This document shows, piece after piece, positions 4,551 through 29,294 of a stretch of DNA of 29,486 bases. Every line of letters begins with the position of its first letter. Position 1 is the stretch's first letter. The notes under the pieces are model-generated. The model saw only the letters and a program-made list of their open reading frames with translations. It was not told where the DNA came from and searched no databases. The stretch is from a virus, in IMG/VR virus record IMGVR_UViG_3300037132_000243, positions 1 through 29,486 of that record, one strand, 5' to 3'. A program made the position numbers and the translations under genes.

Positions 4551-4804
4551 CAGCAGATCACTGGCAAGCGGCGGCGGGATGGTGTCTGTACGGGATTTCG
4601 CTGGCAGCTAGCGCGGGTATTTTCGCGCGGCGGATGCAACAACGACCGCTGGAGCGAATCAAGGCGGCGCACCGTGAATACTATCGCCAGAGCCGTCCGA
4701 TGGTCACGGCCGTCATCAAGCAGGGGTTAACCTCCAAGCATGATATGCCTACGGAATACGGCAGATTGGTAAAACATCGCGGAGCAAGAACAAGGAGGCG
4801 CTGA
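4547..4804 (+). CDS. Hypothetical 85-aa protein with one N-terminal membrane segment
   Basis: Residues about 9-27 (AGWCLYGISLAASAGIF) form a possible transmembrane segment followed by basic residues (ARRMQQRPLERIK), which suggests the C-terminus stays in the cytoplasm. The rest is basic and ends RTRRR. One copy of the recurrent GCCT/AGGC-like hairpin motif lies inside this gene at 4746-4763, near its 3' end. It overlaps the previous gene as ATGA; the next gene starts on its last base. Function unknown. Confidence 0.55.
   Translation: MTADHWQAAAGWCLYGISLAASAGIFARRMQQRPLERIKAAHREYYRQSRPMVTAVIKQGLTSKHDMPTEYGRLVKHRGARTRRR
4746..4763 (+). repeat. Recurrent hairpin motif, copy 1
   Basis: TGCCTACGGAATACGGCA shows the conserved TGCCTACGGA and a closing GGCA that pairs with TGCC. 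This copy is inside a coding region, about 40 bp before the next gene start. Confidence 0.5.
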
Positions 4805-5037
4805 TGAACGAGCAAGAACAGAAGCTAACGCACGGGACCAAGGACGAGCTGCGGTACCTGCACAACATCGGTGAAGAGGGGTTGTCCAAGCTGCCGCGGT
4901 CGCAGCGGCTGCAGAACTACATCGACGCGGCGCAGTTGCGTGTGCATTGGGGCAATCTCGACAAGGATCTGCTGCTGGCCGAGGCGGCCAAGATGCGGAT
5001 CGACGCGTTGCTCGAAGAAAAGAAGCGGGGGCGGTAA
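4804..5037 (+). CDS. Hypothetical 77-aa charged helical protein
   Basis: The protein is almost wholly helical and charged (KDELRYLHNIGEEGL, LPRSQRLQNYIDAAQL, KDLLLAEAAKMRIDALLEEKKRGR). The start shares a base with the previous stop region (TGATG), and an AAGGAGG-like site lies in the upstream gene end. No family recognised. It could be a small adaptor or inhibitor, but nothing in the sequence tells which. Confidence 0.6.
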   Translation: MNEQEQKLTHGTKDELRYLHNIGEEGLSKLPRSQRLQNYIDAAQLRVHWGNLDKDLLLAEAAKMRIDALLEEKKRGR

Positions 5038-5136
5038 ATGGCAACCACTGTGCGAAGGGTTCCGCGCCGGAGTGTTCGCGACGGCGGGCAAGGTGGACCC
5101 CGCGAAGGCGGTGGGGTCGTGATCTGCTGGGCATGA
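5038..5136 (+). CDS. Possible 32-aa leader peptide coupled to the methyltransferase
   Basis: The open frame starts directly after the previous stop (TAA-ATG) and ends with a TGA inside the ATGATGA where the methyltransferase begins. The peptide is Arg/Gly-rich (ATTVRRVPRRSVRDGG). Perfect end-to-start joining at both sides is the only support. It would deliver ribosomes to the methyltransferase, which lacks an obvious ribosome-binding site. Confidence 0.35.
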   Translation: MATTVRRVPRRSVRDGGQGGPREGGGVVICWA

Positions 5137-5873
5137 TGAAACCCTACTATCAAGACCAGTATGTCACGCTCTTCCATGCACGGCTGGAGGACTTCGCCGA
5201 GCTGCCGCGGGCGGACGCCGCGGTGGTCGATCCCCCTTACGGTTCGACGCGGCTGGCGTGGGACCGGTGGCCGGCGAACTGGCCAAGCTGGATGCTGGCG
5301 GCGGTGCCACAGATGTTCGTCTTCGGCACGCTGCGGGTGTGGATGAACCACGCGCACGAGTTCCAGGGCTGGAAGCTGGCGCAAGACCTCGTGTGGGAGA
5401 AACAGAACGGCAGCGGGCTGCACAACGACCGGTTCCGCTGCGTCCACGAGAGCATCATCCATGTCTACCGCGGGCTGTGGTCGTCGCTCTACCACAAGGC
5501 GCAGGTGACGCACGACGCGCAGAAACGCACCATCCGCCGGCAGCAGAAGCCGGCGCATTGGGGGCAACTCTCTAAGGAAGGGGATTACAGCGTGGCCGAG
5601 GGCGGGCCGCGGCTGATGCGGTCGGTGCTGTTCTGCAAGAACGGCCACAGCGTCGGCGAGAACGAAACCGCCAAGCCGGAGGGCATCATCCGCCCGCTGG
5701 TCGAGTATGCGGTGCGCCCGGGCGGGACGGTCTTGGATCCAATGTGCGGCAGCGGGACGGTGCTGGCGGTCGCCAAGAGCAGCGGGCGGCACGCGATCGG
5801 CATCGAGATGCGCGAAGATCAATGTGAAGTGGCAGCACGGCGCTGCACGCAGGTGATGGCGTTGGTGGTATGA
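5133..5873 (+). CDS. Orphan DNA N4/N6-adenine or -cytosine methyltransferase, beta class
   Basis: The product is 246 aa from the first ATG of ATGATG. Counting from the second ATG, the catalytic motif DPPYG is at 32-36 and the AdoMet-binding motif LDPMCGSGTV at 200-209, with an acidic residue E224 (GIEMRED) beyond it. Catalytic motif first and AdoMet motif last is the beta-class order of the N6_N4_Mtase family. The target-recognition part between them is short, about 100 residues. It transfers a methyl group from AdoMet to an adenine or cytosine amino group. No restriction enzyme gene is near, so it is an orphan phage enzyme that may protect phage DNA or mark it. The longer upstream open frame is rejected as lacking family similarity. 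Confidence 0.88.
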   Translation: MMKPYYQDQYVTLFHARLEDFAELPRADAAVVDPPYGSTRLAWDRWPANWPSWMLAAVPQMFVFGTLRVWMNHAHEFQGWKLAQDLVWEKQNGSGLHNDRFRCVHESIIHVYRGLWSSLYHKAQVTHDAQKRTIRRQQKPAHWGQLSKEGDYSVAEGGPRLMRSVLFCKNGHSVGENETAKPEGIIRPLVEYAVRPGGTVLDPMCGSGTVLAVAKSSGRHAIGIEMREDQCEVAARRCTQVMALVV

Positions 5874-5901
5874 CGGTCAACAAACAAACAGAGGAATGAA
5901 G

Positions 5902-6453
5902 ATGATGAACATGATTGGCGATCCGCGGAAGAAGTTTGGTCGGTTGAATGGCTTGCAGAGTCATAAGCTCATTACGATTTTGCAGGAGTTTCCGTTGAAA
6001 GATCTGAAACTGCTCACGGTGGATCAGTTGACGACGCTGCTGCGCACTCCTGAGTATATGGATATGCCCGATCTGTCGAGCGCCTGTGTCGATCATCGGC
6101 TGAAGATGATCGCCGACGAACGCAAACAGGATGCGGAAAAGGCCCAGCAAGCCAAGCTCGCGTCGAAGCTCGCGGCGAAGGTCGCGGCGGTCTCTGCGGC
6201 GAGTCCGGCGCCGGTGACGGTGCAGCCCCTACTGCCGACGGAAGGCAGGACACCGATGCAGTTGCAGCCGGGGCTGACCGCCGTGTCATATTACAAGGAT
6301 TTCGCGTCGCACAAGGAGCTGTACTCGATGGTGCGGCAGGTGGCGCGCGTGCTGCAAAACCTGATTGTAGAACTGTGCGGTAAAGCGTCCGCATCCGAGG
6401 ATCTCGCCGCCATTATCAACCCGCCGCCGCCGCCGGTCGCTAAGAAGGCGTGA
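5902..6453 (+). CDS. Hypothetical 183-aa protein before the RdgC-like gene
   Basis: A GAGG at 5891-5894 favours the ATG at 5902, although 5896 and 5905 are possible. Residues up to about 70 form a compact helical part (LQSHKLITILQEF, LKLLTVDQLTTLLRTPEYM). An Ala/Lys-rich coiled coil follows (AEKAQQAKLASKLAAKVAAV), then a Pro-rich linker, a C-terminal helix (YSMVRQVARVLQNLIVELCG) and a PPPPP tail. I do not recognise the family. Its stop overlaps a GTG of the next gene, so the two probably work together in DNA metabolism. Confidence 0.65.
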   Translation: MMNMIGDPRKKFGRLNGLQSHKLITILQEFPLKDLKLLTVDQLTTLLRTPEYMDMPDLSSACVDHRLKMIADERKQDAEKAQQAKLASKLAAKVAAVSAASPAPVTVQPLLPTEGRTPMQLQPGLTAVSYYKDFASHKELYSMVRQVARVLQNLIVELCGKASASEDLAAIINPPPPPVAKKA

Positions 6454-6458
6454 CCGCT

Positions 6459-8108
6459 ATGGGCTTCAAAAACAAAACGCTGGCGTTCCGCGTGGTGCAG
6501 GTGGGCAGCGAGGGCTGGGAGCGGGAGAAGGCCCTGCTGCCCAAGCTCGCCGATCTGGACCGGAAGCCTGATCCGCTGCCTGTCGTGATGGGCTGGGCGG
6601 CGTGGCGGCACGCCAGGCAGGACGCGACGGGCGACACGGCCCAGCTGTGCGAAGGGGCGGGCGTGGAGCTGCTGCAGCTCGTCGCGGCCTCGAAGAAGGT
6701 GCCGCCGAGTCTGCTGGCGACGGAGCTGGCGCAGGCGGCGGAGGATAAGGAAAAGGACACCGGCAGCCGGATGACGCGCAAGGAGGCCAAGGCGTCCAAG
6801 CAGAACATCTCGGAAATGCTACGCGACGAGGCGCAACTGAGCTATGCCGCGCTGGAGCTGGCTTGGATCAAGCGCGGGCTGGTCGAGCTGGGGCTGACCA
6901 CGGCGGTCAGCGATGTCAACCAGGACACGCTGCGGGCGTGCTCCGCGGGCCTGCATCTGGTGGTCAATCCCGTGACGGCCGCGGGGCTGCTCGGCGAGCA
7001 GGTGCGGGAGTGGCACTACGCCGACTTCGCCACGGGCAACTCCGGCGAGCTGGTGGCGGACGACTACCTGCGCGACTTCCTGCTCTATCTGATGTGGACG
7101 GGGCAGCAGCAAGAGGGCCGCTGGCGCACGGGCGACAACGGCACGCTGGTGGTGCAGCTCGGGTTCGAGATCGGCGGCATGGTGCTGGTCCGTCCTACTG
7201 ATAGCGGGAAAATGAAGGCGGTGACGTTCAAGGCGGGACGCGACTACAAGCTGGCCGAGGTCTGCGCGAAGCTGGCCGAGGGCTACAAACCCAGCAGAGC
7301 CCGCCTGCTGCTGGCGGTGCTGGAAGGTCCGGGCAAGTCGGCCGCGTTCGACTTCGAGCCGGATACCTGGACGTTCCGCGGCGTCAAGCTCGTGGACGCC
7401 GAGGACGCGCCGAGCTGGGCAAACAAGGGCGCGGAGGTGGCGGCGCGGGTGCTAGACGGCATCGCGCTGCACCAGACGCTGGCGGCGCTGCTGCGCGCGT
7501 ATGCCGAGCTGCGTAATGACGGCCCGCGCTGGACGAATATGGTGGAATCCATCAAGTGGTGGGCGTCGGCGGAGACGGCCAAGGCACGCACCGACGACCT
7601 GCTGGCGGCGGAGGGGCTGCGGCGGAAGAAGGATCAACCGGCCGAAGAGGACGACGACGCGCGAGAGAGCCGCGAGGCTGGCGAGTCGGCGCAGCTGACG
7701 CCGGCGGATGTCGCGGATGCGCTGGGACTGGCGTGCCAAGTCATCCAGGATACCGGCAGCGCCACCGAGAAGACGCTGATGCGTCACTTGAAGTGTAGCG
7801 GCAAGGTCGCGGAGATGTTCCTCGCCGCGCTACAGGTCAAGGGCGTCATCGGGGCTAAGACCGGCAGCAAGCCGCGGGAGATCCATCTGTCGGTCCTCAA
7901 CAGCGTGCTGGCTGACCTCAAGAAGCACGGCATCAAGCCGCTGGGCAGCGTCCTGGGCGAAGTGGCGGCGGCGTGCGGGGGCATGGTGACGGGCACGGTC
8001 GGCAGCATCGAGATCAATATGGATAAGCCGTGCTCGAAGTGCGGCAAGGGCGGGGCGTGCGGCAATGGGAAGTGCCTGACCTGCAACACACCGAAACGCG
8101 GGAAGTGA
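6459..8108 (+). CDS. RdgC-like protein with C-terminal FtsK-gamma-like winged helix and Cys cluster
   Basis: From the ATG at 6459 the protein has 549 aa, longer than the roughly 300-aa bacterial RdgC. The start MGFKNKTLAFRV matches the FKNL-type RdgC start. Residues 82-165 follow the RdgC pattern: PPSLL, a charged helix with RMTRKEAKASKQ, a stretch like SEMLRDEAQL, then a strand-rich part. Residues 205-285 include FLLYLMW and FKAGRDYKLAEV. Residues about 433-477 (ATEKTLMRHLKCSGKVAE, then GVIGAKTGSKPREIHL) resemble the gamma winged helix of FtsK, including the GSKPRE ending. Residues 525-542 hold five cysteines (CSKCGKGGACGNGKC, then LTC), probably a zinc site. RdgC binds double-stranded DNA and restrains RecA. 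A recombination or replication role is likely; the fusion is unusual. The upstream GTG at 6450 is an alternative start. Confidence 0.68.
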   Translation: MGFKNKTLAFRVVQVGSEGWEREKALLPKLADLDRKPDPLPVVMGWAAWRHARQDATGDTAQLCEGAGVELLQLVAASKKVPPSLLATELAQAAEDKEKDTGSRMTRKEAKASKQNISEMLRDEAQLSYAALELAWIKRGLVELGLTTAVSDVNQDTLRACSAGLHLVVNPVTAAGLLGEQVREWHYADFATGNSGELVADDYLRDFLLYLMWTGQQQEGRWRTGDNGTLVVQLGFEIGGMVLVRPTDSGKMKAVTFKAGRDYKLAEVCAKLAEGYKPSRARLLLAVLEGPGKSAAFDFEPDTWTFRGVKLVDAEDAPSWANKGAEVAARVLDGIALHQTLAALLRAYAELRNDGPRWTNMVESIKWWASAETAKARTDDLLAAEGLRRKKDQPAEEDDDARESREAGESAQLTPADVADALGLACQVIQDTGSATEKTLMRHLKCSGKVAEMFLAALQVKGVIGAKTGSKPREIHLSVLNSVLADLKKHGIKPLGSVLGEVAAACGGMVTGTVGSIEINMDKPCSKCGKGGACGNGKCLTCNTPKRGK

Positions 8109-8301
8109 TTTCAACCGCGAGGGGGCAGGGTTTGCGTCTAATGGCGCATAGGTTCTGTCCCTGCGTGTCCGGCGCGAGCCGATTATGACACCGGAGCCGG
8201 TGCGGCTATGCCGCTGTCCGGCATCCGCCCCCGCGGAAGAATTGGAAGAGGGGAGCAAGGGTTATGGGTGTTCACTATAGGAAAGCGCAGAGGCCCACGG
8301 G
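8109..8301 (+). other. Intergenic leader with possible tiny coupled ORFs
   Basis: No recognisable gene. A 31-codon frame at 8185-8280 and a 13-codon frame at 8264-8305 are open; the latter follows a GAGGGGAGCAAGG-like site and ends in a TGA that overlaps the next ATG. They may couple translation into the replication gene. A CACCGG/CCGGTG hairpin lies near 8188-8201. Confidence 0.3.
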
Positions 8302-9354
8302 ATGAGCGTCAAGACCCTCGGGCACTATCATTGGCATAAGGTGTGGCACGACGATCTGATGTCGGACGGGGGCTATGCCCGCGTCGGTCTGTTGGAGCGC
8401 GGTGCATATTCGACGCTGTGCAACTTGGCCGGATCGACCAATAACAGCGGCAGTATGAGGGTTGGCATGGACGCGGCGCTGAACATCCGCACGGCCGCGG
8501 AGTGGTTGGTGGACGTCGTTCCCGGCGCCGGAGAGCGTAAAGACCGCTGCAAGGCTAACCGTGCGTTGCTGCGTACGCTGGTCAAGGCGGGGCTGCTGGT
8601 GGTGCGCGGCGAGAAGCTGTGCATCAGCTCGTGGGCGGAGGAGCAGAAGTGTGCGCCCAGCATGGAGGCGGCGCGACAGCGACGTTGCCGTGCGTTGCGT
8701 AACAAGGATCTCAGCGCCGGCGATGAGGGGGGGCGCGGAATGGGAGAATCTCCGCGCGAATTTTTCGCGGCCGTTCCTCCGCCGGCCGCCGGCCCCAGAG
8801 GGGCGGCAGAGCCGCCCCTCCCCCCCTCGACTTCGACCGATTTCGAGGGGATTGTGACACATCACGCAGAGCGTGACATGTCACACAGAGGAGAGGCAGA
8901 GGAGATCGAAGACGAAAGACGAAAAAAAGAGTCCTTCGACTCTCGAACTTCGATTTCGAAAGAAGGCGCGGACGCCTCGACGGGGGGGAGGGGCGGCTCT
9001 GCCGCCGGAAGCGATCGGAGCAGCCCCATGCGTGCCCTGGTGGATCCCAAGCTGTTCCCGTTCTGGCCGCAAGACGAAAAGGATGAAGCAGCTTTTGAGA
9101 GATTGGAATACGAGCAGCTCGTCGCCGCGGCGATGGATCTGTGCAAGACCTGCAAGACGTTCGATAAAAACACCTACAGCCGCCAGCTGCGGCTGATGGA
9201 AGCCCGCTACGGGCAGGAGCAAGCGGCGTGGTGGTTCAAGAAGGCGCTGGGGAAGGTGCACCGCGCCATCGTCGACAAGATCGCCCGCAAGCCTGCCGCG
9301 TTGATGAATCATGAGCTTGAAAAGTGTGCGCAAGGACTCCCAAACAGCCCGTAA
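8302..9354 (+). CDS. Phage replisome-organizer-like replication protein
   Basis: The 350-aa protein has an N-terminal winged-helix-like domain (about 1-125). It starts WHKVWHDDLMSDGGYARVG, goes on with RGAYSTLCNLAGSTNNSGSM, and ends LLRTLVKAGLLVVRGEKLCISSW. This is the layout of phage replisome-organizer N-termini that bind the origin. A long linker of low complexity (about 160-240) follows, then a helical C-terminal domain (PFWPQDEKDEAAFERLEYEQL and QEQAAWWFKKALGKVHRAI) that could recruit the helicase. The linker DNA carries strong palindromes and short repeats, as in lambda O, where the origin lies inside the gene. The place after the RdgC-like gene and before a nucleotide phosphohydrolase fits replication. 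The family call is by pattern only. Confidence 0.55.
   Translation: MSVKTLGHYHWHKVWHDDLMSDGGYARVGLLERGAYSTLCNLAGSTNNSGSMRVGMDAALNIRTAAEWLVDVVPGAGERKDRCKANRALLRTLVKAGLLVVRGEKLCISSWAEEQKCAPSMEAARQRRCRALRNKDLSAGDEGGRGMGESPREFFAAVPPPAAGPRGAAEPPLPPSTSTDFEGIVTHHAERDMSHRGEAEEIEDERRKKESFDSRTSISKEGADASTGGRGGSAAGSDRSSPMRALVDPKLFPFWPQDEKDEAAFERLEYEQLVAAAMDLCKTCKTFDKNTYSRQLRLMEARYGQEQAAWWFKKALGKVHRAIVDKIARKPAALMNHELEKCAQGLPNSP
8797..9006. other. Candidate replication origin inside the replication gene
   Basis: The stretch holds a perfect 10-bp stem with a 3-nt loop (8798-8820) and a 14-nt hairpin with 12 matches (8854-8867 with 8871-8884, loop AGA). It also has a 25-bp perfect long-range inverted repeat (8802-8826 with 8982-9006) and three CTTCGA-to-TCGA words (8831-8846, 8934-8946, 8948-8959). 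A purine-rich, A-rich run lies at 8885-8932. It encodes only a low-complexity linker, so the DNA, not the protein, seems constrained. Confidence 0.5.
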
Positions 9355-9369
9355 AACGAAAGTTGAACT

Positions 9370-9933
9370 ATGACGAAGAACTACAAAATGACCCCCTGGT
9401 GCCAGACCTACACCGGCGTGCTGTTCTACCCGCTCGAACCGGACGCGGAGGATATTTGCATCGAGGACATCGCGCACCATCTGGCGATTATCAACCGCTT
9501 CGGCGGGGCGAGCCGCGTACCGATTTCGGTGGCGGATCATTCCGTTCTCGTGGCCGGCGAAATGCCGGCGCATCTGGCCCTGTGGGGGCTGCTGCACGAT
9601 GCCAGCGAGGCGTATCTGATCGACCTGCCGCGGCCCGTTAAATACAGCCCCGAGCTGGTGGGCTATCGGAAGGTCGAGGCGATGCTGCAGGCGATGATCT
9701 ACGCGAAGTTCGGCTTGACCGGTCCCGAGCCGGCGGAGTTGAAGCTGGTGGATGACCAGATGCTGATGACCGAGCAGCGCGACCTGATGGGACCGCAAAC
9801 CGAGCCCTGGGCGTGCCAAGCTCAACCGTATACGTCAATCGTCTATCCGCTGTCGTGGCAGTCGGCGGAATCCGTGTTTCTGTTTTGGATGCGCCGGCTG
9901 ACGAATGGGAGCGCGCATGGCCACGCCCGCTAA
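9370..9933 (+). CDS. HD-domain phosphohydrolase, YfbR-like nucleotidase
   Basis: The 187-aa protein has the HD pattern: H57 in VADHSVLV, H76-D77 in LLHDASEAYLIDLPRPVK, and an acidic pair D128/D129 in KLVDDQML. The sequence ISVADHSV and HDASEAYLIDLP is typical of the YfbR/5'-deoxyribonucleotidase group, which removes phosphate from dNMPs with a divalent metal. In phages such enzymes tune nucleotide pools. The gene follows the replication gene after 15 bp and precedes a small unknown gene that overlaps its end. Specificity cannot be read from the sequence. Confidence 0.75.
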   Translation: MTKNYKMTPWCQTYTGVLFYPLEPDAEDICIEDIAHHLAIINRFGGASRVPISVADHSVLVAGEMPAHLALWGLLHDASEAYLIDLPRPVKYSPELVGYRKVEAMLQAMIYAKFGLTGPEPAELKLVDDQMLMTEQRDLMGPQTEPWACQAQPYTSIVYPLSWQSAESVFLFWMRRLTNGSAHGHAR

Positions 9934-10291
9934 ACATCTCCCCGACTGCGACACGCAGGATCGCAACCCCGAGGGCATCGTCAAGCCGTGCAACTGCAAG
10001 GGGCGTGAGTGTGTGCCGGGGACTTTCTCCGTCAACCCGCTGCTGGCGCCGCCGGCGAAGGCGAAGCGGAAGACGAGCGTGCCGCGGCTGACACTGCTGG
10101 AGCGGATACGGTTCGAGCTGGTCAAGGCGTACGCGCCCACGGGGATGCTCGGCGCCGGCCAGCAGCCGGCGCCGGTCTGCGCGCGGCTGACGATCAGCCT
10201 GGCGGACGAAACCCTGCGGCAGCTGTATGCGACGCCGTTCAGCTTCGAGCCGGTGCGGGATGATGGGCTGATGGAAACGGGCGGTCGGTAG
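9917..10291 (+). CDS. Hypothetical 124-aa protein with N-terminal cysteine cluster
   Basis: The ATG at 9917 is preceded by GGGAG at about 6 nt; an in-frame ATG at 9905 is an alternative. The N-terminal part (HLPDCDTQDRNPEG, then KPCNCKGREC) has four cysteines that could hold zinc. The C-terminal part (LTLLERIRFELVKAY, then LADETLRQLY) is helical. It overlaps the end of the HD gene. Family unknown; it closes the replication block before a recurrent hairpin motif and the terminase genes. Confidence 0.55.
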   Translation: MATPAKHLPDCDTQDRNPEGIVKPCNCKGRECVPGTFSVNPLLAPPAKAKRKTSVPRLTLLERIRFELVKAYAPTGMLGAGQQPAPVCARLTISLADETLRQLYATPFSFEPVRDDGLMETGGR

Positions 10292-10312
10292 TTTTGACTT
10301 CTACGCTTGCGC

Positions 10313-10330
10313 TGCCTACGGAAGATGGCA
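10313..10330 (+). repeat. Recurrent hairpin motif, copy 2
   Basis: TGCCTACGGAAGATGGCA, with TGCC pairing to GGCA, lies between the replication block and the small terminase, 46 bp before the terminase ATG. A T-rich run (TTCTTTTT) follows. Confidence 0.55.
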
Positions 10331-10375
10331 CTATTCTTTTTCGCAGTCGGTGTGAGAACCAGCGTGGAGGTTCCG

Positions 10376-10966
10376 ATGACGACGAAGAAGAAACCAGCAG
10401 CGCGAGCGCGGAAGGCCGTCCAACCGGAACGGCGACCCCGCAAATCCCCAAGCCGGCGCGACAACGCGCAGCCGCGGGCGGGCACGCACACGTGGCTGCC
10501 CGCGCGGCTACCCGCACGCGTAGCAAAAAACATGCCACTGACCGACCGCCTCGCCGGCTTCCTCGATGAACTTAGCGAGGGCGGCTTCTATACGCCGACG
10601 GCGGCGCGGTGGCGGTTGAGCTGGTCCCGCGACATCAAACCGCTACTCACCCACGGCAAGAAATTCAACACGGCTTTCGAGCAGCTCTACACCGAAGCCA
10701 AAAAGACGGGCAGTGAGCGCCGCAACGAGTTGCGCGAGGACTGCGCAGACATGAAGGCGATGGTGGGCTGGGACGAACCGGTCTTTCAGCAAGGTAAGTA
10801 TGTGGGCTCGGTGCGGCGGTTTTCCGACCGGCTGCACGAGATCATGCTGCGCGCCGGAAATCCCGCGAAGTTCGCCGACCGGCACGAGCTGACCGGCGCG
10901 AATGGCACGGCGTTCACGGGTGGCGTCATCGTCTTGCCGGCGGACATCCCGGCGCCGCGGGAGTAA
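10376..10966 (+). CDS. Putative terminase small subunit
   Basis: The ATG at 10376 has GGAGG eight nt upstream, which decides the start against an in-frame ATG at 10307. The 196-aa product begins with a basic tail of about 50 residues (TTKKKPAARARKAVQPERR). The rest holds helices (DRLAGFLDELSEGG, WSRDIKPLLTHGKKFNTAFEQLYTE) and a C-terminal region RRFSDRLHEIMLRAG, then KFADRHELTGANG and GGVIVLP. Ends of the form ADRxELTGxxG are frequent in phage small terminases. The gene lies 6 bp before the large subunit. In packaging the small subunit recognises the pac or cos site and loads the motor. Confidence 0.65.
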   Translation: MTTKKKPAARARKAVQPERRPRKSPSRRDNAQPRAGTHTWLPARLPARVAKNMPLTDRLAGFLDELSEGGFYTPTAARWRLSWSRDIKPLLTHGKKFNTAFEQLYTEAKKTGSERRNELREDCADMKAMVGWDEPVFQQGKYVGSVRRFSDRLHEIMLRAGNPAKFADRHELTGANGTAFTGGVIVLPADIPAPRE

Positions 10967-10972
10967 AGCCTG

Positions 10973-12394
10973 ATGGCTGACCCGCTCAAGATTCATTGGC
11001 AGGCGTTCCCTGGCAAGCAGAAGTTCACGCTGTCGGTCGGCGGCGTGCGCGAAATGAATTATGGCGGGGCGCGCGGGGGCATGAAGACCACCACGGGCAT
11101 TGCCTGGCTGGTCAAGCCGCCGCACATCGAGCATCCCGCCTACCGTGCGCTGGTCCTGCGGCGCAACAGCGACGACCTATCCGATTGGGTGGATCGCGCC
11201 ACGCGAATGTGGGCTCCGCTGCGGCCACGCAAGACCGGCAAGCCGGCGGTGTTCGAGTTCCCCTCGGGCGCCATCGTGCGCTGTAACCATCTCAAAGACC
11301 GCGAGGCGTACACCAAGTACCAGGGACACGAGTACCACAAGATGCTCGTGGAAGAATTGCAGCAGATCCCGCGCGAGATGGATTACTTGAACCTGATTTC
11401 GGCGTGCCGCACGACCGTGCGCGAGCTGCCGGCGCAAATCTTTGTCACCTGCAACCCGGGCGGCATCGGGCACAGTTGGATCAAGGCGCGCTGGCATATC
11501 GGCAAGCTGTCCGACCGCAAACCCTGCGTGGCCTATCCCATCCCTGGCGACGAGGGGCGGCTGATGATGTACGTGCCGGCGACCATCGACGACAACCCAC
11601 TGCTGATGCAGATCGACCCGGGCTATGTGAAGTTCCTCGAAAGCCTGCCCGAGCCTATCCGGTCGGCGTGGCGGTTCGGCGATTGGGACATTTTCAGCGG
11701 GCAGGTGTTCGAACTGCTGGAGGGACTGCACATCATCGACGGCGCCGAGGTGCCCGCGGGCGCGGAGATCCTGATGACCTTCGATTGGGGCAGCGGCAAG
11801 CCGTTCTCCTGCGGCTACTGGTGGCAGGACGCGGACGGGCGGCTGTACCGCTTTCAAGAGCTGTACGGCTGCGGCCCCGAAGCGAATACGGGGCTACACC
11901 TGACCGACGAGGAAACCGCGGAGCGCATCGTCGCGTTCGAGAAGAAGCTCGGCATCCACGATCGCATCAAGCGCCGGCTGGCCGGCTCGGATTGCTTCGC
12001 CAAGCGTGTCAGCGCCGACAATGGCATCGGCCCGTCCACCTACGAAACCTTCGCCAAGCAGAAGATTTTTCTGGAGCAGGGCGACTGCGGACCAGGCTCG
12101 CGCAAGCGCAAGCTCGACGCGCTCAAGCAGCGGCTGCGGGTGCGCCGCGACTCCGAGGGCAAGCCCGTCGAGCTGCCCATGCTCGTCGTCTACCGCTGCT
12201 GCAAGCACTTCACGCGCACCGTGCCGCTGCTGGTCTACAACCTCGACAACCCCGAGGACGTGGACACCGAGCTGGAAGATCACGCCTACGACGACACGAG
12301 TTTTATCGTTCTCGCGCGCGTGCTGAAAGACAACACCTCGGCGCCGCCGGCAGCGGCCCGCATGGCGAAGGTGGGCAAGAAGAAAATGTTTTGA
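10973..12394 (+). CDS. terL: Terminase large subunit
   Basis: The 473-aa motor protein shows an ATPase domain with Walker A GGARGGMKT (31-39), an adenine-side motif near ALVLRRN (59-65), Walker B MLVEE (124-128) with the catalytic Glu, and a coupling motif CNPGG (160-164). The nuclease domain starts at MTFDWGSGKPF with D271 as the first metal ligand. More acidic positions follow (GSDCFAKRVSADNG, and DTELEDHAYDDTSF near the end). It pumps DNA into the prohead and cuts the concatemer. The gene has the order and spacing expected after the small subunit, and it is of usual length. Confidence 0.93.
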   Translation: MADPLKIHWQAFPGKQKFTLSVGGVREMNYGGARGGMKTTTGIAWLVKPPHIEHPAYRALVLRRNSDDLSDWVDRATRMWAPLRPRKTGKPAVFEFPSGAIVRCNHLKDREAYTKYQGHEYHKMLVEELQQIPREMDYLNLISACRTTVRELPAQIFVTCNPGGIGHSWIKARWHIGKLSDRKPCVAYPIPGDEGRLMMYVPATIDDNPLLMQIDPGYVKFLESLPEPIRSAWRFGDWDIFSGQVFELLEGLHIIDGAEVPAGAEILMTFDWGSGKPFSCGYWWQDADGRLYRFQELYGCGPEANTGLHLTDEETAERIVAFEKKLGIHDRIKRRLAGSDCFAKRVSADNGIGPSTYETFAKQKIFLEQGDCGPGSRKRKLDALKQRLRVRRDSEGKPVELPMLVVYRCCKHFTRTVPLLVYNLDNPEDVDTELEDHAYDDTSFIVLARVLKDNTSAPPAAARMAKVGKKKMF

Positions 12395-12402
12395 GGACCA
12401 CC

Positions 12403-13298: not shown

Positions 13299-13354
13299 AT
13301 ATGGGTTCGGCACGGCGACATCATTTATCGTGATGAATGAGTCATGGTTGACAG

Positions 13355-13390
13355 CCCCGCCAGGATTCAAGCGGGGGTCAGTCCCACTTC
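13355..13390. repeat. Hairpin with GGTCAGTCCC motif, REP-like
   Basis: CCCCGC (13355-13360) pairs with GCGGGG (13371-13376) around a 10-nt loop, followed at once by GGGTCAGTCCCACTTC. GGGTCAGTCCC-type words are, as I remember, part of widespread REP-like repeats. It lies between two convergent genes and may also stop transcription from either side, though no T-run follows. Confidence 0.45.
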
Positions 13391-13393
13391 AAA

Positions 13394-13591
13394 TTATTTG
13401 CGTCGTAAAATATTTCTGCAAAGCCAAACAAGAAAAAGAACAGCACCTATACGTGCCAGGTTATACAAAGTGTGGTTGGGTTCCCGTTCAATTCCAAAGC
13501 CAACGCGCACGATGTAAGGGGCCAGTATTATAAGAAAAAGCCCGACTACACTTAACACGAACAGTATAAATGCGATTATTTTCGAAGCCAT
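13394..13591 (-). CDS. Small two-helix membrane protein, antisense moron candidate
   Basis: The 65-aa product is strongly hydrophobic in two stretches: residues 4-28 (KIIAFILFVLSVVGLFLIIL) and about 46-60 (IGAVLFLVWLCRNI), joined by a short polar loop with IEREPNH and ending in RRK. The gene is the only one on the minus strand within the structural region. Its DNA is much poorer in GC than its neighbours. A TTGACG-N17-TACGCT promoter lies just upstream and a GGCGG precedes the ATG. Autonomous, reversed, compositionally foreign genes in prophages (morons) are often expressed from the lysogen, for example to block superinfection. The role is inference. Confidence 0.55.
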   Translation of the reverse strand: MASKIIAFILFVLSVVGLFLIILAPYIVRVGFGIEREPNHTLYNLARIGAVLFLVWLCRNILRRK

Positions 13592-13617
13592 TTCTTGCCG
13601 CCGAAGTTCTTTCGCGC

Positions 13618-13646
13618 AGCGTAGGCTTGGAAGTCAGGCGCGTCAA
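13618..13646 (-). promoter_or_regulatory. Candidate sigma70 promoter for the antisense membrane gene
   Basis: On the minus strand TTGACG (13646-13641) and TACGCT (13623-13618) are 17 bp apart, about 27 bp upstream of the membrane-protein ATG. Confidence 0.45.
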
Positions 13647-13933
13647 GCACGGCACGTTCACCCGCAAACGGTTTTCAGAGGTTCGGCTCGTCGGCGGCGT
13701 TTTTCGTGACAGATGACGTAGCCAACCCTGCAAAACTAATCCTTGCCGTCCTGCCGTGTTCACCCCCGCGCAACGGTCGAAGCGCAGGCCCGCGCTGCCG
13801 ATCAAGCGGCTGCAGCAGGGCATTATTTCCGCGCTACGGTTGGGCCTGCGCGCTCTGATTTGTAATAACTGCCCCGCCCGCCACGGCGCGAAAACCCAGC
13901 AAAACACGCACAAAACATCATTTCCGCCGGCCA
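13647..13933. other. Gene-free structured stretch
   Basis: I find no convincing gene in either direction; open frames here have unnatural composition. A perfect 10-bp inverted repeat (13782-13791 with 13842-13851, GCGCAGGCCC/GGGCCTGCGC) encloses 50 nt with further pairing. The stretch ends in a strong terminator on the plus strand, so it may be a 3' untranslated region or a small RNA. Confidence 0.45.
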
Positions 13934-13966
13934 CGGCGCGCCCCCTCGGGTGCGCCGTTTTTTTTT
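13934..13966 (+). terminator. Rho-independent terminator before the portal gene
   Basis: A 10-bp stem (13934-13943 with 13948-13957, one G-T pair) with a CCTC loop is followed by nine T. This is the clearest terminator in the window and separates the packaging block from the head genes. Confidence 0.92.
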
Positions 13967-13977
13967 CCGCTAGACGC

Positions 13978-13993
13978 GCCTACGGATTGCGGC
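13978..13993 (+). repeat. Recurrent hairpin motif, copy 3
   Basis: GCCTACGGATTGCGGC lies 11 bp after the terminator T-run and 53 bp before the portal ATG. Here only GCC/GGC can pair. A TTAAT follows. Confidence 0.55.
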
Positions 13994-14030
13994 AAGTCTT
14001 AATCCATCGACCACCGATAGCGTGAAACTT

Positions 14031-16356: not shown

Positions 16357-17031
16357 ATGAGAAACGTAGTCACGCAGCGCGGTAATCTGGAGCAGATGTG
16401 CGAGAGCCTGGGCCTGGCCGCCACGGTACAGCCCACTGATCACGCCGACGCCACGGCTGTCCGGCAGTTCAAATACTGGTGCGGTCGCAACCTCGAAGTG
16501 GCGCGGCGCGAGCTGGTGCATACGCAGAAGCTCCAGCGCGCCGAGCTCAAACCCATCGCGGGCATGGAACATTTCATCGCCGCGAAGGAACAGTCCGCGC
16601 TGAAATTCTGCAAGCGCGACGCGCAGGGCAGCCCGATCTACGCGCAAGACCCTGCCACCGGCCGCACGGGCATGGAGATCCTGCCCGAGAAGAACGGCGA
16701 CTATCGCCGCGAGCTGCTGGAGCTCGCCAAGCAATTCGCCGGCATCGTCAAGGACATGGACACCAACCAGCGCAACGCCGACAACGTGCTCCACCAGGAC
16801 GTGACGCTCAAGATGTTCACCATCGACTTTACCGGCGCGCCCGAGCGCATGGCCGGCGGGTTGATCGCGGACCTGCGCTTCATGCTGGACAACGTGCCGG
16901 AAGAAGCCGCCCCGCAGAATTTGATGGCGGCGCGCTACTTCGGCACGCAGGCGCCGGACGCGAAAAAGCCGTGGTATGTGCGGCTGAATGAGCGGTTGCA
17001 GGTGCGGAAGGTGCAGCGCGCGGGCGCGTGA
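16357..17031 (+). CDS. Hypothetical 224-aa head-region protein
   Basis: An AAGGAA site lies before the ATG. The protein is mainly helical (CGRNLEVARRELVHTQKLQ, YRRELLELAKQFAGIVKDMD) with a C-terminal part MFTIDFTGAPERMAGGLIADL. Family unknown. It lies between portal and scaffold, so it may be a head assembly protein or a head-packaged protein. A copy of the recurrent hairpin motif follows its stop by one base. Confidence 0.6.
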   Translation: MRNVVTQRGNLEQMCESLGLAATVQPTDHADATAVRQFKYWCGRNLEVARRELVHTQKLQRAELKPIAGMEHFIAAKEQSALKFCKRDAQGSPIYAQDPATGRTGMEILPEKNGDYRRELLELAKQFAGIVKDMDTNQRNADNVLHQDVTLKMFTIDFTGAPERMAGGLIADLRFMLDNVPEEAAPQNLMAARYFGTQAPDAKKPWYVRLNERLQVRKVQRAGA

Positions 17032-17032
17032 T

Positions 17033-17048
17033 GCCTACGGATTGAGGC
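17033..17048 (+). repeat. Recurrent hairpin motif, copy 4
   Basis: GCCT-ACGGATTG-AGGC begins 2 nt after the TGA of the previous gene and ends 4 nt before the next ATG. Its GAGG may serve as ribosome-binding site here. Confidence 0.6.
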
Positions 17049-17051
17049 TTG

Positions 17052-17419: not shown

Positions 17420-18409
17420 ATGGACCCCGTACCGTTGAATGCAGCAGAAGCCAGCAGCGCACAGACCGCCTTCGCGGCGGGTGCGGCCACGCTTGCCCAG
17501 GCCCCCGCCGCCGCGGCCCCCGCCGTCGCGCCCGTAGTGCCTACTGATAAAGGCGTATTGCCGTCCGCGGCTCCGCAGCCCGCCCCCACCCCCGAAGGCG
17601 ATGCCGCGCCCGAGGGCGACGGCAAACCCGTCAGCACCCTCGCAGCCATCCACGCCGAAGCCGCCGCCGAGCAGGCCGTCGAACGCCAGCGTGCACTGGA
17701 CGCCGAGGCCGACCGGCTGCGCCGCGAAGCCAGCGCCGCGGCCACCGCCGCGCCGGCCCCGCAGGCCGAAGCGATCGCGCAGACGCTTGCCGCGCTGCCC
17801 CAGCTGCTCGCTGGCATCAAGGATGTGGTCGTTGATGACCCCAGCGTCACCGAGGGCGCGACGCCAGGCAAGTCCACCGTGGGCGAAATCATGCAGGGCT
17901 ATCCGGCCATCGCGCAATCCATGATGGCGCTGATTCAAGCGGCGGTCCCGCAACTTCTGGCACGGGAGCTCGGCCACACCGTCATGCCGACGATCAACGC
18001 TTTCCACCAGCAGCAGACGGCCGCGAAGGTCGATACGCTCATGGGCGCGCTCGACGAAGCCGGCCACACCGACATCCGTGACCTGTACGCCGATGACGCC
18101 AAGTGGGGCGAGATCCAGGCGTTTGCCGATGGCGACCCCGTGTTGAAGCGCTATTTCGATTCCGACGACGCCGGCAAGCTCGACAAGGTGCTGCAGGCGT
18201 GGCGCGAGAGCAAAGGCGAGGCGATGCCCGCCGCGGTGGCGAAGGTGCGCAGCACGAACGACGCCCAGCGTCAGCGCACCGCGGCCTTGCATGGTGGCAC
18301 GCTGCGCAACCGCCAAGGCGCCGCGCCCGCCGGCAACCAGCGCGAACCTACGGCGGCGGAGAAACAGCGCCTGTTCGATGTTGGGCAACGCGGAGTCACA
18401 GGGCAATAA
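17420..18409 (+). CDS. Putative scaffolding protein
   Basis: The 329-aa protein is low in aromatic residues. It has a disordered Ala/Pro-rich N-terminus (about 1-75), a coiled-coil stretch (AEAAAEQAVERQRALDAEADRLRREA, 80-110), a middle helical part, and a charged helical C-terminus ending in NQREPTAAEKQRLFDVG. Composition, acidity and place directly upstream of the capsid gene fit a scaffolding protein, which directs prohead assembly and then leaves. Copy 5 of the hairpin motif lies inside its N-terminal coding part (17539-17554) and reads VPTDKGVL. Confidence 0.65.
   Translation: MDPVPLNAAEASSAQTAFAAGAATLAQAPAAAAPAVAPVVPTDKGVLPSAAPQPAPTPEGDAAPEGDGKPVSTLAAIHAEAAAEQAVERQRALDAEADRLRREASAAATAAPAPQAEAIAQTLAALPQLLAGIKDVVVDDPSVTEGATPGKSTVGEIMQGYPAIAQSMMALIQAAVPQLLARELGHTVMPTINAFHQQQTAAKVDTLMGALDEAGHTDIRDLYADDAKWGEIQAFADGDPVLKRYFDSDDAGKLDKVLQAWRESKGEAMPAAVAKVRSTNDAQRQRTAALHGGTLRNRQGAAPAGNQREPTAAEKQRLFDVGQRGVTGQ
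17539..17554 (+). repeat. Recurrent hairpin motif, copy 5 (in-gene)
   Basis: GCCT-ACTGATAA-AGGC lies inside the scaffold gene. With its flanks (CCGTAGT before, GTATT after) it is nearly the same as copy 6, which lies between genes. Confidence 0.6.
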
Positions 18410-18638: not shown

Positions 18639-18683
18639 ATACTTTTTGAGCGGCGTGTGCCGCAAAAAATAGCGCGACGAAGG

Positions 18684-18757
18684 GCCGTTTGAGTCTGGTT
18701 GCGATGGAAGTGGTTGCCGGCAGTCCGGCGACCAAACAACCACCAGGAGCAAACGGC
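18684..18757 (+). promoter_or_regulatory. Structured mRNA leader of the capsid gene
   Basis: GCCGTTTG (18684-18691) is exactly complementary to CAAACGGC (18750-18757), just before the capsid ATG. Inside lies a second stem (18712-18720 with 18725-18733, one G-T pair, CAGT loop). The AGGAG ribosome-binding site (18744-18748) is next to the closing stem, so folding could control access. Confidence 0.55.
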
Positions 18758-18758
18758 A

Positions 18759-19769: not shown

Positions 19770-19776
19770 ACCCGAC

Positions 19777-19802
19777 ACCGGAGGCTTGAAAGAGCCTCCG
19801 GT
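19777..19802 (+). terminator. Terminator-like hairpin after the capsid gene
   Basis: ACCGGAGGCT and AGCCTCCGGT form a perfect 10-bp stem with a 6-nt loop, 8 bp after the capsid stop. No T-run follows, so it may be an mRNA-end or stability hairpin, or a leaky stop. Confidence 0.65.
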
Positions 19803-19838
19803 ATCCAACCCCAACGAAACCCCAAAAAGGAAAAGATC

Positions 19839-20282: not shown

Positions 20283-20292
20283 GTCACGGAAA

Positions 20293-20321
20293 GCCGGCGG
20301 CGGGACAGCCCCGCCGCCGGC
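20293..20321 (+). terminator. GC-rich hairpin between head genes
   Basis: GCCGGCGGCGGG and CCCGCCGCCGGC form a perfect 12-bp stem with an ACAGC loop. It lacks a T-run. Copy 6 of the recurrent motif begins 15 bp later. Confidence 0.6.
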
Positions 20322-20335
20322 CCACCGTCCGTAGT

Positions 20336-20351
20336 GCCTACGGATACAGGC
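20336..20351 (+). repeat. Recurrent hairpin motif, copy 6
   Basis: GCCT-ACGGATAC-AGGC follows a GC-rich hairpin and precedes the next ATG by 19 bp. Its flanks (CCGTAGT before, GTAAT after) match copy 5. Confidence 0.65.
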
Positions 20352-20370
20352 GTAATACATCAGGAGCTAT

Positions 20371-20976: not shown

Positions 20977-20987
20977 GGATCTGAACC

Positions 20988-21578: not shown

Positions 21579-21589
21579 CAAGGAGAACT

Positions 21590-23442: not shown

Positions 23443-23458
23443 ACGGAGTTGTTGTCCC

Positions 23459-23851
23459 ATGAATGGAACAAACACGATGAGCGAAGAAAAAGTAGCGGTC
23501 GACCTGGTGTTGCAACAGGCCGAAGACCTGGGCCGCCAGCTGCACGACTGCAAGGAGCCAGAGCTTGCAGCGTGCGGCGTACACCGGCAGGCGACGGCGC
23601 TGACGCTGAAGATGATCGCCCCGCTCTACAAGGCGTTCAACAACGGCGGACTGCCCTCGAAGAAAGCCGGCGCCAGCATCAAGATCGGCCCCTTGGAGAT
23701 CACCGGCGAGCGCGCGTTTCGCGCCGTGCTGCTGACGCTCGTGGTGTTTATCGCCGCCATGCTGTGCGGCTTGCGGGTGCAGTACGACAACGGCCAGCTC
23801 AACATCGGCTCGGACAGAAGCCATAGCGCGACGGCCAAGATTCAACCCTGA
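23459..23851 (+). CDS. Single-membrane-span 130-aa protein, holin-like candidate
   Basis: A CGGAG lies ten nt before the ATG at 23459; MSEEK at 23477 is an alternative start. The first 85 residues are helical and charged. Residues about 87-106 (FRAVLLTLVVFIAAMLCGL) form one transmembrane span, followed by a short polar tail. A single span with the next genes encoding a lipoprotein and a cysteine peptidase suggests a lysis role (holin or pinholin), but this is only from context. Confidence 0.5.
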   Translation: MNGTNTMSEEKVAVDLVLQQAEDLGRQLHDCKEPELAACGVHRQATALTLKMIAPLYKAFNNGGLPSKKAGASIKIGPLEITGERAFRAVLLTLVVFIAAMLCGLRVQYDNGQLNIGSDRSHSATAKIQP

Positions 23852-23889
23852 TTTCAATGTGTGAAGGTCCAAACCCCTAGGAGAACTCG

Positions 23890-24387: not shown

Positions 24388-24422
24388 AGAACCTCCGTTC
24401 CTCCATCATCAAAAGGAAGACA

Positions 24423-25193: not shown

Positions 25194-25213
25194 GGTTTCG
25201 GGAAAGGAGCAAC

Positions 25214-26598: not shown

Positions 26599-26606
26599 GG
26601 CGCACC

Positions 26607-27314
26607 ATGCCACCGACCAACGATATTCCGCGGACAGAACCCGACCGCGTGCTGGCCGAAGTCAACACGCTGAAAATCATGTGCGCCAAGCTGGAGCAGC
26701 AACTCCAGCAGCTCCGCGGCGGCGGCGGAGATGACATGGGCTGTTTCTCCGGCAACCGTTTCCAGCTCCCTCCCGAGCTGGGCGCAGGTGGCGACTCCCT
26801 GACGCTGCCTTTCGCCTACTTCGGACCCGACCCCGCCAGCGCGCCGGACAACAACGTCGCCCTACTGCGCGTGGGCTGGGTGGAAGTCACCACGCCAGCG
26901 GACAAGGCCGCGATTGGCACGCCCGCCGCCGGCGACGACCTGACCACCGACGCCGACGTCGCCGACGACACCACCAAAACAGAACCTGTCACGCTGCTGG
27001 AGGGCGACAATTTCATCTGCGCGCACTTCGCCCGCAACGCCACCGTGGCCGACTCGACGCTGGAGCTGGTGCGCTTCGACTCCTGGGCGGACATCCCGAC
27101 CAACACCAACGACGATTACTATTACCCGCTCGCGCTCGTCACCCTGACCTCGACGACCGACGAGGACATCACCACCGGCGTCCAGCGGTTGGTCCGGCCC
27201 TTCCGCGCCGGCAACATCGCGTGGATTCCCACGCCCAAGACGCTCAATTACTGCGACGGCGGCATCTCGCACGCCTACGACATCCCCGCCTACGAGGCCC
27301 CGCCACCGGAGTAA
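26607..27314 (+). CDS. Hypothetical 235-aa protein with N-terminal coiled coil
   Basis: An N-terminal coiled coil (DRVLAEVNTLKIMCAKLEQQL) is followed by a Gly run and a long acidic beta-rich part with Thr/Asp repeats (DDLTTDADVADDTTKTEPVT, LVTLTSTTDEDITTGV). A trimerising coil plus a beta-rich acidic body is usual for appendage or tail proteins. The start is at 26607, after a weak GAGGCGC. Family unknown. Confidence 0.6.
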   Translation: MPPTNDIPRTEPDRVLAEVNTLKIMCAKLEQQLQQLRGGGGDDMGCFSGNRFQLPPELGAGGDSLTLPFAYFGPDPASAPDNNVALLRVGWVEVTTPADKAAIGTPAAGDDLTTDADVADDTTKTEPVTLLEGDNFICAHFARNATVADSTLELVRFDSWADIPTNTNDDYYYPLALVTLTSTTDEDITTGVQRLVRPFRAGNIAWIPTPKTLNYCDGGISHAYDIPAYEAPPPE

Positions 27315-27317
27315 CCG

Positions 27318-27935
27318 ATGAGCTTCCCCCTGCGCGAGAGCATCGACGTGGATATGTGGACAGGCGCCGGCGCGTCCACGTTCGCATGCTTCAACCCGCA
27401 GATCTTCAACTGCCCCCTCCGCGGCGGGGCCTGTTGCATCGCGTTTGTTGAAATCCTGTGCTGCCCGACCGGTACGCACACGGCGCGACTGCTGGGCATC
27501 ACCACCTTTGGAGAAGTCGGGCCTGATTGGGCTCTGAGCGAAAAGCATGACGAAGCTGCGGGCGATCCGTGGGATGGTTCCTATTGGATGCCCTACGCGT
27601 TGGCGGTGTCGTTGAGCGAAGCGTTGCCTTATGGATGGCACGATGCGGACGGCGTGCGCCACACGATGGCGCCGGCGTCGGTGCTGCCGGTCCTCGTGGG
27701 TGCGCTCCCGGGCACGCTGGTCAGCGCCGGCCCGCCGCCGGTTTGGGGGCCTACCTCATTACCCATCACCGCCCCGGAGGATGTGCCCGCAGGTTGCTCC
27801 GTCTCCTACGTGGCGATCAGCTCGCGGGAGTGGATCGACGTGATCCAATCCGATGGCGTCGATGGCGAAGGCCAACCGAAGTACAAGACCAACTGCCACA
27901 TGGGGTGCAGTAAAACCGATCCGGTGTTCCATTGA
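27318..27935 (+). CDS. Hypothetical cysteine-rich 205-aa structural-region protein
   Basis: Nine cysteines occur in 205 residues, six of them within the stretch ACFNPQIFNC to ILCC near residues 24-49. The body has strands with Trp (GPDWALSEKHDE, SYWMPYALAVSLSEALPYG) and ends NCHMGCSKTD. Its stop overlaps the next TTG start. No signal peptide. Family unknown. Confidence 0.6.
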   Translation: MSFPLRESIDVDMWTGAGASTFACFNPQIFNCPLRGGACCIAFVEILCCPTGTHTARLLGITTFGEVGPDWALSEKHDEAAGDPWDGSYWMPYALAVSLSEALPYGWHDADGVRHTMAPASVLPVLVGALPGTLVSAGPPPVWGPTSLPITAPEDVPAGCSVSYVAISSREWIDVIQSDGVDGEGQPKYKTNCHMGCSKTDPVFH

Positions 27936-28903
27936 GCAACGACTGTCAGAGCGACCCGCTGCCCTGCGGCGCGCACGGCGCCGGCACGGATGACGAGGTG
28001 GCCTCGATTTGGGGCGACACCAATCCCTACGATGCGGACTATCTCCAGACGCTGGCCGACGCCGTCGTCTGCGCCGCGGCGTGCTATGCGTGGCGGCAGA
28101 AATGGATTTGGGACTGCACGCTGACGCCGCACGCGTGGGCGCCGGATGCCGAAGCGGCGGCGATTGTGTCTGTCCCGTGCGACCAGGCGGCGAATCTCGT
28201 CGTGGCGCTTGACGGCTGCTCGGCGTGGGCCTACGGCACGCCGGCCGTGTGGGCGTCGCTGCCGGAAACCTCGGATGTGCCCACCGCTCCCGATCTGCCC
28301 GCGGTGGACGATGGCACCTGCTGTCCAGAGAGCGTGCAGGAATGCCAATGGTACGCGCGTTTCCGGTTTGATCAGGACACTTGCACATGGGTGCTGGTAG
28401 ATGGCCCTACGATCATCCCGCACGCACCGACGCAAGCGGCTGGCGATTTCTGCCTGGCCGGCACGGGCGCCGAAGCGGGCAACCTCTACATCGTCCGCTA
28501 CAGCGAGGTGCTCTACTCCACTGCGGGGCAGACGTGCGAGGAAACCTACTCCGAAGCGCCATCAAGCTTTGTCACTCCCGCGCCCAACCCCGCCGTGTTC
28601 TACCTGGTCTGCGCGCAGGCGTTCAGCGACACCAGTTGTGAAACGGTGAAGGAGCAGAAGCGCGTCATTATCGCCGTGGAAACCGGTGGACCCTGCCCGG
28701 ATTATCCGTTCAGCGCCTTCGGTGTTTGCTACGGCGCGTATGAGTGTCCAGGCGAACTGGGCTTTCCCCGCCCTGGCTATGATTACAACGGCTGCAAGAT
28801 CACGCTGCTGGGTGGCGGACCCTTTTGCAGCGTGGATGAAGCCGGAGCCTGGGGCGACGCCAACGACAGCCTCTGCCCGTTCGTGGCGGCACCACCGGTA
28901 TGA
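27932..28903 (+). CDS. Hypothetical very cysteine-rich 323-aa protein
   Basis: The start is a TTG that overlaps the previous TGA (TTGA). I count 21 cysteines in 323 residues, spread over the whole length, many in short pairs (VVCAAACYAW, DGTCCPESVQEC, VCYGAYEC). Trp and Tyr are also frequent. Such content is unusual for a cytoplasmic phage protein and suggests a disulfide- or metal-stabilised virion part. It overlaps the next gene as ATGA. Family unknown. Confidence 0.6.
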   Translation: MSNDCQSDPLPCGAHGAGTDDEVASIWGDTNPYDADYLQTLADAVVCAAACYAWRQKWIWDCTLTPHAWAPDAEAAAIVSVPCDQAANLVVALDGCSAWAYGTPAVWASLPETSDVPTAPDLPAVDDGTCCPESVQECQWYARFRFDQDTCTWVLVDGPTIIPHAPTQAAGDFCLAGTGAEAGNLYIVRYSEVLYSTAGQTCEETYSEAPSSFVTPAPNPAVFYLVCAQAFSDTSCETVKEQKRVIIAVETGGPCPDYPFSAFGVCYGAYECPGELGFPRPGYDYNGCKITLLGGGPFCSVDEAGAWGDANDSLCPFVAAPPV

Positions 28904-29238
28904 ACATCATCCGTCATGTGACCAGCGCGCGCGGTTATCCGGTCGTGATTGTGGCTCGCACGGAGGCGGGTGCCGCGGCGATCATGGCGCAACTCGCCGC
29001 GGAAGCGCACTCAGCTCCGGTCCGATCCGGCGCACGACCGCCGCACGCACCGCGGGCCACTCCAAAACCCCTGGAAGAAACGGCGATACTTTCGCGCGAG
29101 GCGGTCTGTGGTGGGTGTGAACATTTCCTGGGCGGCTTCAAGCGCGAACAGTACCGGTGCCTCGCGAAAAAGGGCTGTACGCGGCTGCGGATCGCCGCGC
29201 CACACGAGCATTGCGAGCAGCAAAAGTGGGGCTCATAG
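28900..29238 (+). CDS. Hypothetical 112-aa protein with C-terminal Cys/His cluster
   Basis: The N-terminal half has a small alpha/beta pattern (IIRHVTSARGYPVVIVARTE, AAAIMAQLAAEA). The C-terminal part carries VCGGCEHF, RCLAKKGC and HEHC, which gives five cysteines with histidines and could bind zinc or an iron-sulfur cluster. It overlaps the preceding gene as ATGA. Family unknown. A gene-free gap with motif copy 7 follows. Confidence 0.6.
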   Translation: MNIIRHVTSARGYPVVIVARTEAGAAAIMAQLAAEAHSAPVRSGARPPHAPRATPKPLEETAILSREAVCGGCEHFLGGFKREQYRCLAKKGCTRLRIAAPHEHCEQQKWGS

Positions 29239-29278
29239 CGTGCGTTTGACTTATCTCCTTGCGGTCAGCGGTGTGTGT

Positions 29279-29294
29279 GCCTACGCTTTGAGGC
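29279..29294 (+). repeat. Recurrent hairpin motif, copy 7
   Basis: GCCT-ACGCTTTG-AGGC lies 40 bp after a stop and 56 bp before the last ATG. A TTAAA follows. Confidence 0.6.

Follow-up and report, generated by a model that had tools for sequence, protein, structure and literature searches.

Why does a short sequence recur seven times, always on the same strand, along one fragment of a viral genome? The question is raised by IMG/VR record IMGVR_UViG_3300037132_000243, all 29,486 bases of which make up the window analysed here. An earlier note on this DNA had offered three readings of the repeat: a promoter specific to the phage, a site of RNA processing, or a small element that spreads. We found a real, phage-specific and oriented repeat at the starts of gene blocks, and this repeat is most likely a transcription-control site. 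The idea of phage control is thus upheld, whereas a promoter in particular is only possible and a selected fold finds no support.

The repeat and the phage that carries it

The record covers the left part of a podovirus-like temperate phage, GC-rich and integrated; as a record it is complete at 29,486 bases, but the last gene runs off its end and the phage sequence is therefore incomplete. Judged by sequence, positions 1-1500, which include a gene for a GH43 glycosyl hydrolase, look like host DNA. They are followed by a leftward integrase gene (1539-2627; phrog_1 match) with small leftward genes next to it, and an A+T-rich gap (3181-3317, 43% GC) then divides the integrase-side genes, read leftward, from genes read rightward. 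The rightward run encodes DNA-binding-like small proteins (one of them, at 3532-3714, with an HTH_17 match), a DNA methyltransferase, the small and large terminase subunits, a portal/head-tail connector, a major head protein (phrog_1357) and an SU10-adaptor-like protein. A lower-GC stretch at 13299-13976, which separates the packaging genes from the portal gene and ends in a strong rightward terminator, has the appearance of inserted cargo (a moron); a possible small leftward ORF at 13394-13591 has a weak DUF4260 match, below the cut-off (E = 0.017). The 549-residue protein encoded at 6459-8108 has no PDB relative by sequence and contains a weak FtsK gamma-domain-like stretch, below the Pfam cut-off (E = 0.0011). 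FtsK gamma domains recognise oriented DNA motifs, and by analogy a link between this protein and the repeat is conceivable.

We counted copies as 18-mers beginning at the T or C that precedes GCC. Direct reading and alignment recovered all seven copies in the places reported earlier, and 7/7 lie on the + strand, in the direction of transcription; the earlier coordinates are exact for copies 1 and 2 and one base late, as 18-mers, for copies 3 to 7. Each copy consists of GCC, TAC, seven variable or semi-conserved bases and GGC, in that order. The columns GCCTAC and GGC are invariant in all seven, and the aligned copies give the consensus TGCC-TACGGAtnna-GGC, which we write as TGCCTACGGATnnAGGC when comparing it with known repeats. 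The distance between the arms, described before as nearly fixed, is exactly 10 nt from GCC to GGC in every copy. Within the 18-bp element the outer GCC/GGC arms are symmetric and the TACGGAt centre is asymmetric; a simple dimeric operator is disfavoured because this conserved centre lacks symmetry.

The repeat is strongly over-represented. The 10-mer TGCCTACGGA has four occurrences against 0.04 expected, ranking first among the 10-mers of the window, and the 9-mer GCCTACGGA, for which an order-3 Markov model predicts about 0.2 occurrences, is present five times on the + strand and absent from the - strand. A looser form, GCCTAC[GT]-N4-6-GGC, matches nine times on the + strand and not at all on the - strand, compared with 0.5-1.2 matches in Markov nulls; the two extra matches (14711 and 23097) are weak and lie inside coding sequence. 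With a position-weight model the seven copies score 23.3-26.1 bits, and 150 Markov-3 windows held in total one site of at least 20 bits. Leave-one-out models found each held-out copy (18.1-23.7 bits) above every non-copy site of the window, though for copies 2, 5 and 7 the margin was narrow (1.0-2.2 bits); copies 5 and 7 are hence the weakest members by sequence. It might be argued that chance together with coding bias produced the repeat, since GCCTAC encodes the frequent pair Ala-Tyr, and the hexamer is indeed found 23 times on the + strand against three times on the - strand, often in coding frames. However, the majority of the seven copies fall outside coding sequence, and the pattern of the full 18-mer lies far above the Markov nulls, which leaves this explanation scarcely credible.

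Outside the window the motif appears to be absent from comparable DNA. Related phage DNA amounting to 466 kb, chosen by protein similarity and not by motif, contained no site above 17.4 bits. It is also true, as the earlier note observed, that no copy lies in the chromosomal part of the window, but that part measures only about 1.5 kb and the observation consequently carries little weight. No close relative of the phage was found in the collections searched, which may omit records very near the window. In IMG/VR the terminase search reached no more than 47% identity (on the best segment), and the best phage record stands at 38%; the portal search returned one relative (27% identity), those with capsid and integrase returned no close relatives, and a scan of genome contigs gave two distant loci only. 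None of the relative loci selected through these four proteins holds the motif. When IMG/VR was scanned for exact matches to three versions of the motif, 25, 85 and 0 stretches came back. On local rescoring these proved to be single matches in diverse surroundings, or repeats in tandem within coding sequence (L059, L080 and L139), rather than dispersed copies, and we regard them as chance matches. A literature search for TGCCTACGGA retrieved unrelated matches only, mostly in eukaryotic and plant-virus papers.

Placement relative to genes and hairpins

Five of the seven copies are wholly noncoding, whereas from position 3200 to the end only 5.1% of 18-mer positions are noncoding according to our hand-made gene calls (binomial P about 7e-6). 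The start listed in these calls at 23461 is not in frame, the correct one being 23417 or a different start upstream; the seven sites are unaffected. As the earlier note had it, the five noncoding copies (2, 3, 4, 6 and 7) all lie in gaps shortly before genes. Copy 2 (TGCCTACGGAAGATGGCA, 10313-10330, 23.3 bits) is found in an 84-nt gap upstream of the small terminase subunit gene (ATG 10376), and copy 3 (CGCCTACGGATTGCGGCA, 13977-13994, 24.7 bits) past an intrinsic terminator and ahead of the portal gene (ATG 14031 or GTG 14022). Copy 4 (TGCCTACGGATTGAGGCT, 17032-17049, 26.1 bits) occupies a 20-nt gap from the stop at 17031 to ATG 17052, and its GAGG could double as the ribosome-binding site of that start. 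Downstream of a large hairpin, copy 6 (TGCCTACGGATACAGGCG, 20335-20352, 24.7 bits) has ATG 20371 a further 18 nt on, while copy 7 (TGCCTACGCTTTGAGGCA, 29278-29295, 23.4 bits) lies in a 112-nt gap upstream of ATG 29351. A correction concerns the other two copies, which lie inside reading frames: copy 1 (TGCCTACGGAATACGGCA, 4746-4763, 25.8 bits) is within the 3' end of ORF 4547-4804, with ATG 4804 41 nt downstream, and copy 5 (TGCCTACTGATAAAGGCG, 17538-17555, 23.8 bits) falls at about codon 40 of gene 17420-18409. The distance from motif to start codon ranges from 2 to 55 nt. No copy is present in the large gaps 8109-8301 and 18639-18758, the latter of which precedes the major capsid gene, or in the divergent gap 3181-3317.

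Terminator-like hairpins had been reported ahead of copies 3 and 6. This is correct for copy 3, which follows an intrinsic terminator on the + strand (13933-13967) composed of a hairpin with an 11-bp stem (13933-13958) and a T-run. This terminator, the only strong one on the + strand, ends about 10 nt before the copy, which thus sits within the roughly 60 nt separating it from the portal gene. The hairpin upstream of copy 6 (20286-20328, 19 bp) is strong but has no T-run. It is one of two strong hairpins without T-runs, the other at 19774-19805, that stand on both sides of the gene following the major head protein gene.

The DNA adjoining the copies is biased in composition. The 10 nt downstream of the motif are 69% A+T, compared with 33% for the 10 nt upstream and 43% for noncoding DNA overall, and none of 20000 random sets of noncoding 10-mers matched this downstream richness, to which overlap with ribosome-binding regions could contribute. 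Some copies resemble each other over longer stretches: copies 5 and 6, rightly described before as having shared flanks, are 79% identical over 42 nt, and copies 1 and 2 are 73% identical over 37 nt. These shared stretches, and the position of copy 3 at the border of the apparent cargo segment 13299-13976, would suit short spreading or recombination-linker repeats that mark module boundaries and have no regulatory role. Passive linkers, however, would not be expected to keep to a single strand, to hold a fixed spacing and a conserved centre, or to be followed by A+T-rich DNA; moreover, no target-site duplications were seen and other IMG/VR phages do not carry the sequence in multiple copies. 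We consider such an origin improbable.

A signal in DNA or in RNA

The number of copies, their common strand, their placement before gene blocks, the A+T-rich DNA downstream and the absence of the motif from 466 kb of related phage DNA together support control by the phage. The reading that we favour, tentatively, is a DNA-level transcription signal for the middle and late blocks that is read by a phage regulator. A phage-encoded regulator, either an activator or an alternative sigma-like factor, would bind the 18-bp element and direct RNA polymerase to start in the A+T-rich DNA that adjoins it downstream, so that transcription would begin at the head of each middle or late gene block. In its favour are the over-representation and single orientation of the motif, the gaps in which most copies lie, the A+T-rich DNA on their downstream side, the asymmetric core, and copy 3, which sits past a terminator, where a new start is needed. 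No motif-holding gap contains a sigma-70-like -35/-10 pair (16-18 nt spacing), whereas the divergent gap 3181-3317 has no copy of the motif but two sigma-70-like candidates that overlap. Together with the placement of copy 3, this contrast points to blocks expressed after the first genes.

Several observations weigh against a transcription signal. The gaps 8109-8301 and 18639-18758 lack the motif. Sigma-70-like pairs are rare throughout the window, at counts near the shuffled-sequence level, and the -10-like sequences downstream of the motifs are poor and in no fixed register. As copy 4 lies only 2-4 nt ahead of a start codon and copy 5 is intragenic, transcripts starting from them would begin inside reading frames. 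Furthermore, among the loci searched no relative has the motif, and no regulator was recognised in the window. Neither a single-subunit (T7-like) phage RNA polymerase nor a clear sigma factor was found in this truncated contig, which ends inside the phage. The closest annotated relatives of the capsid include Pseudoalteromonas phage vB_Pun_Y3, whose capsid is assigned to the N4-gp56 family and in which no RNA polymerase is annotated. An N4-type hairpin promoter was considered, as copy 6 can also fold CCGTAG-TGC-CTACGG, and rejected, as the other copies cannot.

A less likely alternative, and with stoperator-like silencing (below) one of the two main rivals, is that the element acts at the RNA level, as a hairpin in mRNA leaders whose conserved UACGGAU loop is bound by a protein or cut, with effects on translation or mRNA processing of the sort proposed for the Start Associated Sequences (SAS) of mycobacteriophages. 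Every copy is transcribed in the sense direction, GCC/GGC pairing around a constant 10-nt loop is possible in 7/7, and the 3' arm of copy 4 overlaps a likely ribosome-binding site. The earlier note saw a selected fold in arms that change in copies 1 and 2 and still pair. This was not confirmed: none of the seven copies departs from the three G-C pairs of GCC/GGC, the difference lies in the outermost pair only, and no compensatory change is seen. Three copies have T-A at that outermost pair, two have T-G and two are unpaired there; the inner T-A pair is intact in four copies and broken in three. Thus, edge pairs are broken in 2/7 and 3/7 copies, and compensatory changes affect none of the 4-5 pairs in the seven-copy alignment, three of which never vary and are hence uninformative. 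The invariant pairs neither favour an RNA hairpin nor rule one out. Folding is near the shuffled level in most copies (z-scores of -0.01 to -2.1), an Rfam covariance scan of the window gave no match up to E = 1, and both the varying distance to the start codon and the intragenic position of copy 5 sit poorly with a leader element. We dropped a CsrA-type interpretation of the loop (A-C-GGA) because GGA is absent from copies 5 and 7. In favour of an RNA element, the start-associated SAS repeats of mycobacteriophages also combine symmetric ends, an asymmetric core and a single orientation (PMC3203893).

Comparison with repeats of other phages

Middle and late promoters activated by phage proteins, such as P2 Ogr, T4 MotA and lambda CII, carry a short element in place of the -35 region, or next to it, at several operons. 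The element described here resembles them as a short element at several operons of one phage, and its sequence is unrelated to theirs. A distant relative, L065 (MW202566.1), has the 9-mer CTGAACGTG at three sigma-70-like promoters (1196, 37452 and 38910), where it lies directly before, beside or close to the -10; a fourth occurrence is coding. This 9-mer is possibly an operator of that phage. It is different in sequence from the element in the window and comparable in arrangement, with one repeat at several gene starts, which we count in favour of a transcription signal. Two other repeats were excluded as analogues. In L018, a phage contig with a related terminase, a palindrome with TTGGAAAATTTTCCAA core is present six times at 518-11819 and looks like a repressor operator; it was set aside as palindromic. 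In L005, L006 and L007, AAGGAACAGC stands directly upstream of start codons on the opposite strand, in an unusually uniform ribosome-binding region, and was set aside as a series of ribosome-binding sites.

In Cluster O mycobacteriophages a palindromic 17-bp repeat is present in more than 30 copies (PMC4351075). As in those phages, the window element is repeated throughout, with many copies intergenic and some in coding sequence; unlike those near-perfect palindromes, which have no clear orientation, it has an asymmetric core and occurs on one strand only. The SAS of Cluster K mycobacteriophages are 13-bp asymmetric repeats with symmetric ends, found in one orientation 3-7 bp upstream of starts (PMC3203893). 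The window element likewise is a short asymmetric repeat with symmetric ends (GCC-N10-GGC, compared with GGG-N7-CCC in SAS), has a single orientation, lies close upstream of starts and is missing from most other phages. It differs in its distance to the start (2-55 nt, with only copy 4 as close as SAS), in that most copies have a separate ribosome-binding site whereas SAS include the Shine-Dalgarno core AGGAG, and in its presence at structural genes, SAS being confined to the non-structural half. The SAS consensus GGGATAGGAGCCC does not match TGCCTACGGATnnAGGC.

The stoperators of Cluster A phages such as L5 are asymmetric, repressor-bound sites of 13 bp in promoters and short intergenic gaps, more than 20 in number, and their orientation follows transcription and is essential for function (PMC9283540). 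By analogy, a prophage repressor might bind the oriented intergenic sites in the window and block elongation or initiation by RNA polymerase in the lysogen. The phage is temperate, as its integrase and its junction with the host-like GH43 gene indicate, and its seven asymmetric copies (7/7 on +) follow transcription, mostly in short gaps, just as in L5. Nevertheless, silencing of this kind is unlikely: stoperators are also found at early promoters, where a repressor should act first, and there is no copy in 3181-3317, assuming that the early promoter lies there. In addition, the element is 18 bp long with only seven copies in about 26 kb of a partial genome, no repressor of the type that binds stoperators was recognised, and the downstream A+T bias is left unexplained.

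The element resembles both SAS and stoperators in action or in placement, but as it departs from SAS in start-codon distance and from stoperators at the early promoter, we assign it to neither. It is possible, and we suggest it with reservation, that it belongs to a previously undescribed control system in which one regulator, through an 18-bp oriented element, starts or stops transcription at the boundaries of middle and late blocks. The sequence is new, and the kind of signal is known from other phages. Already in its present state the finding extends the pattern of stoperators and SAS to a phage apparently unrelated to the mycobacteriophages in which they were originally described; if confirmed, the element would offer a handle on the ordering of gene expression in this temperate phage and serve as a specific tag by which relatives could be found.
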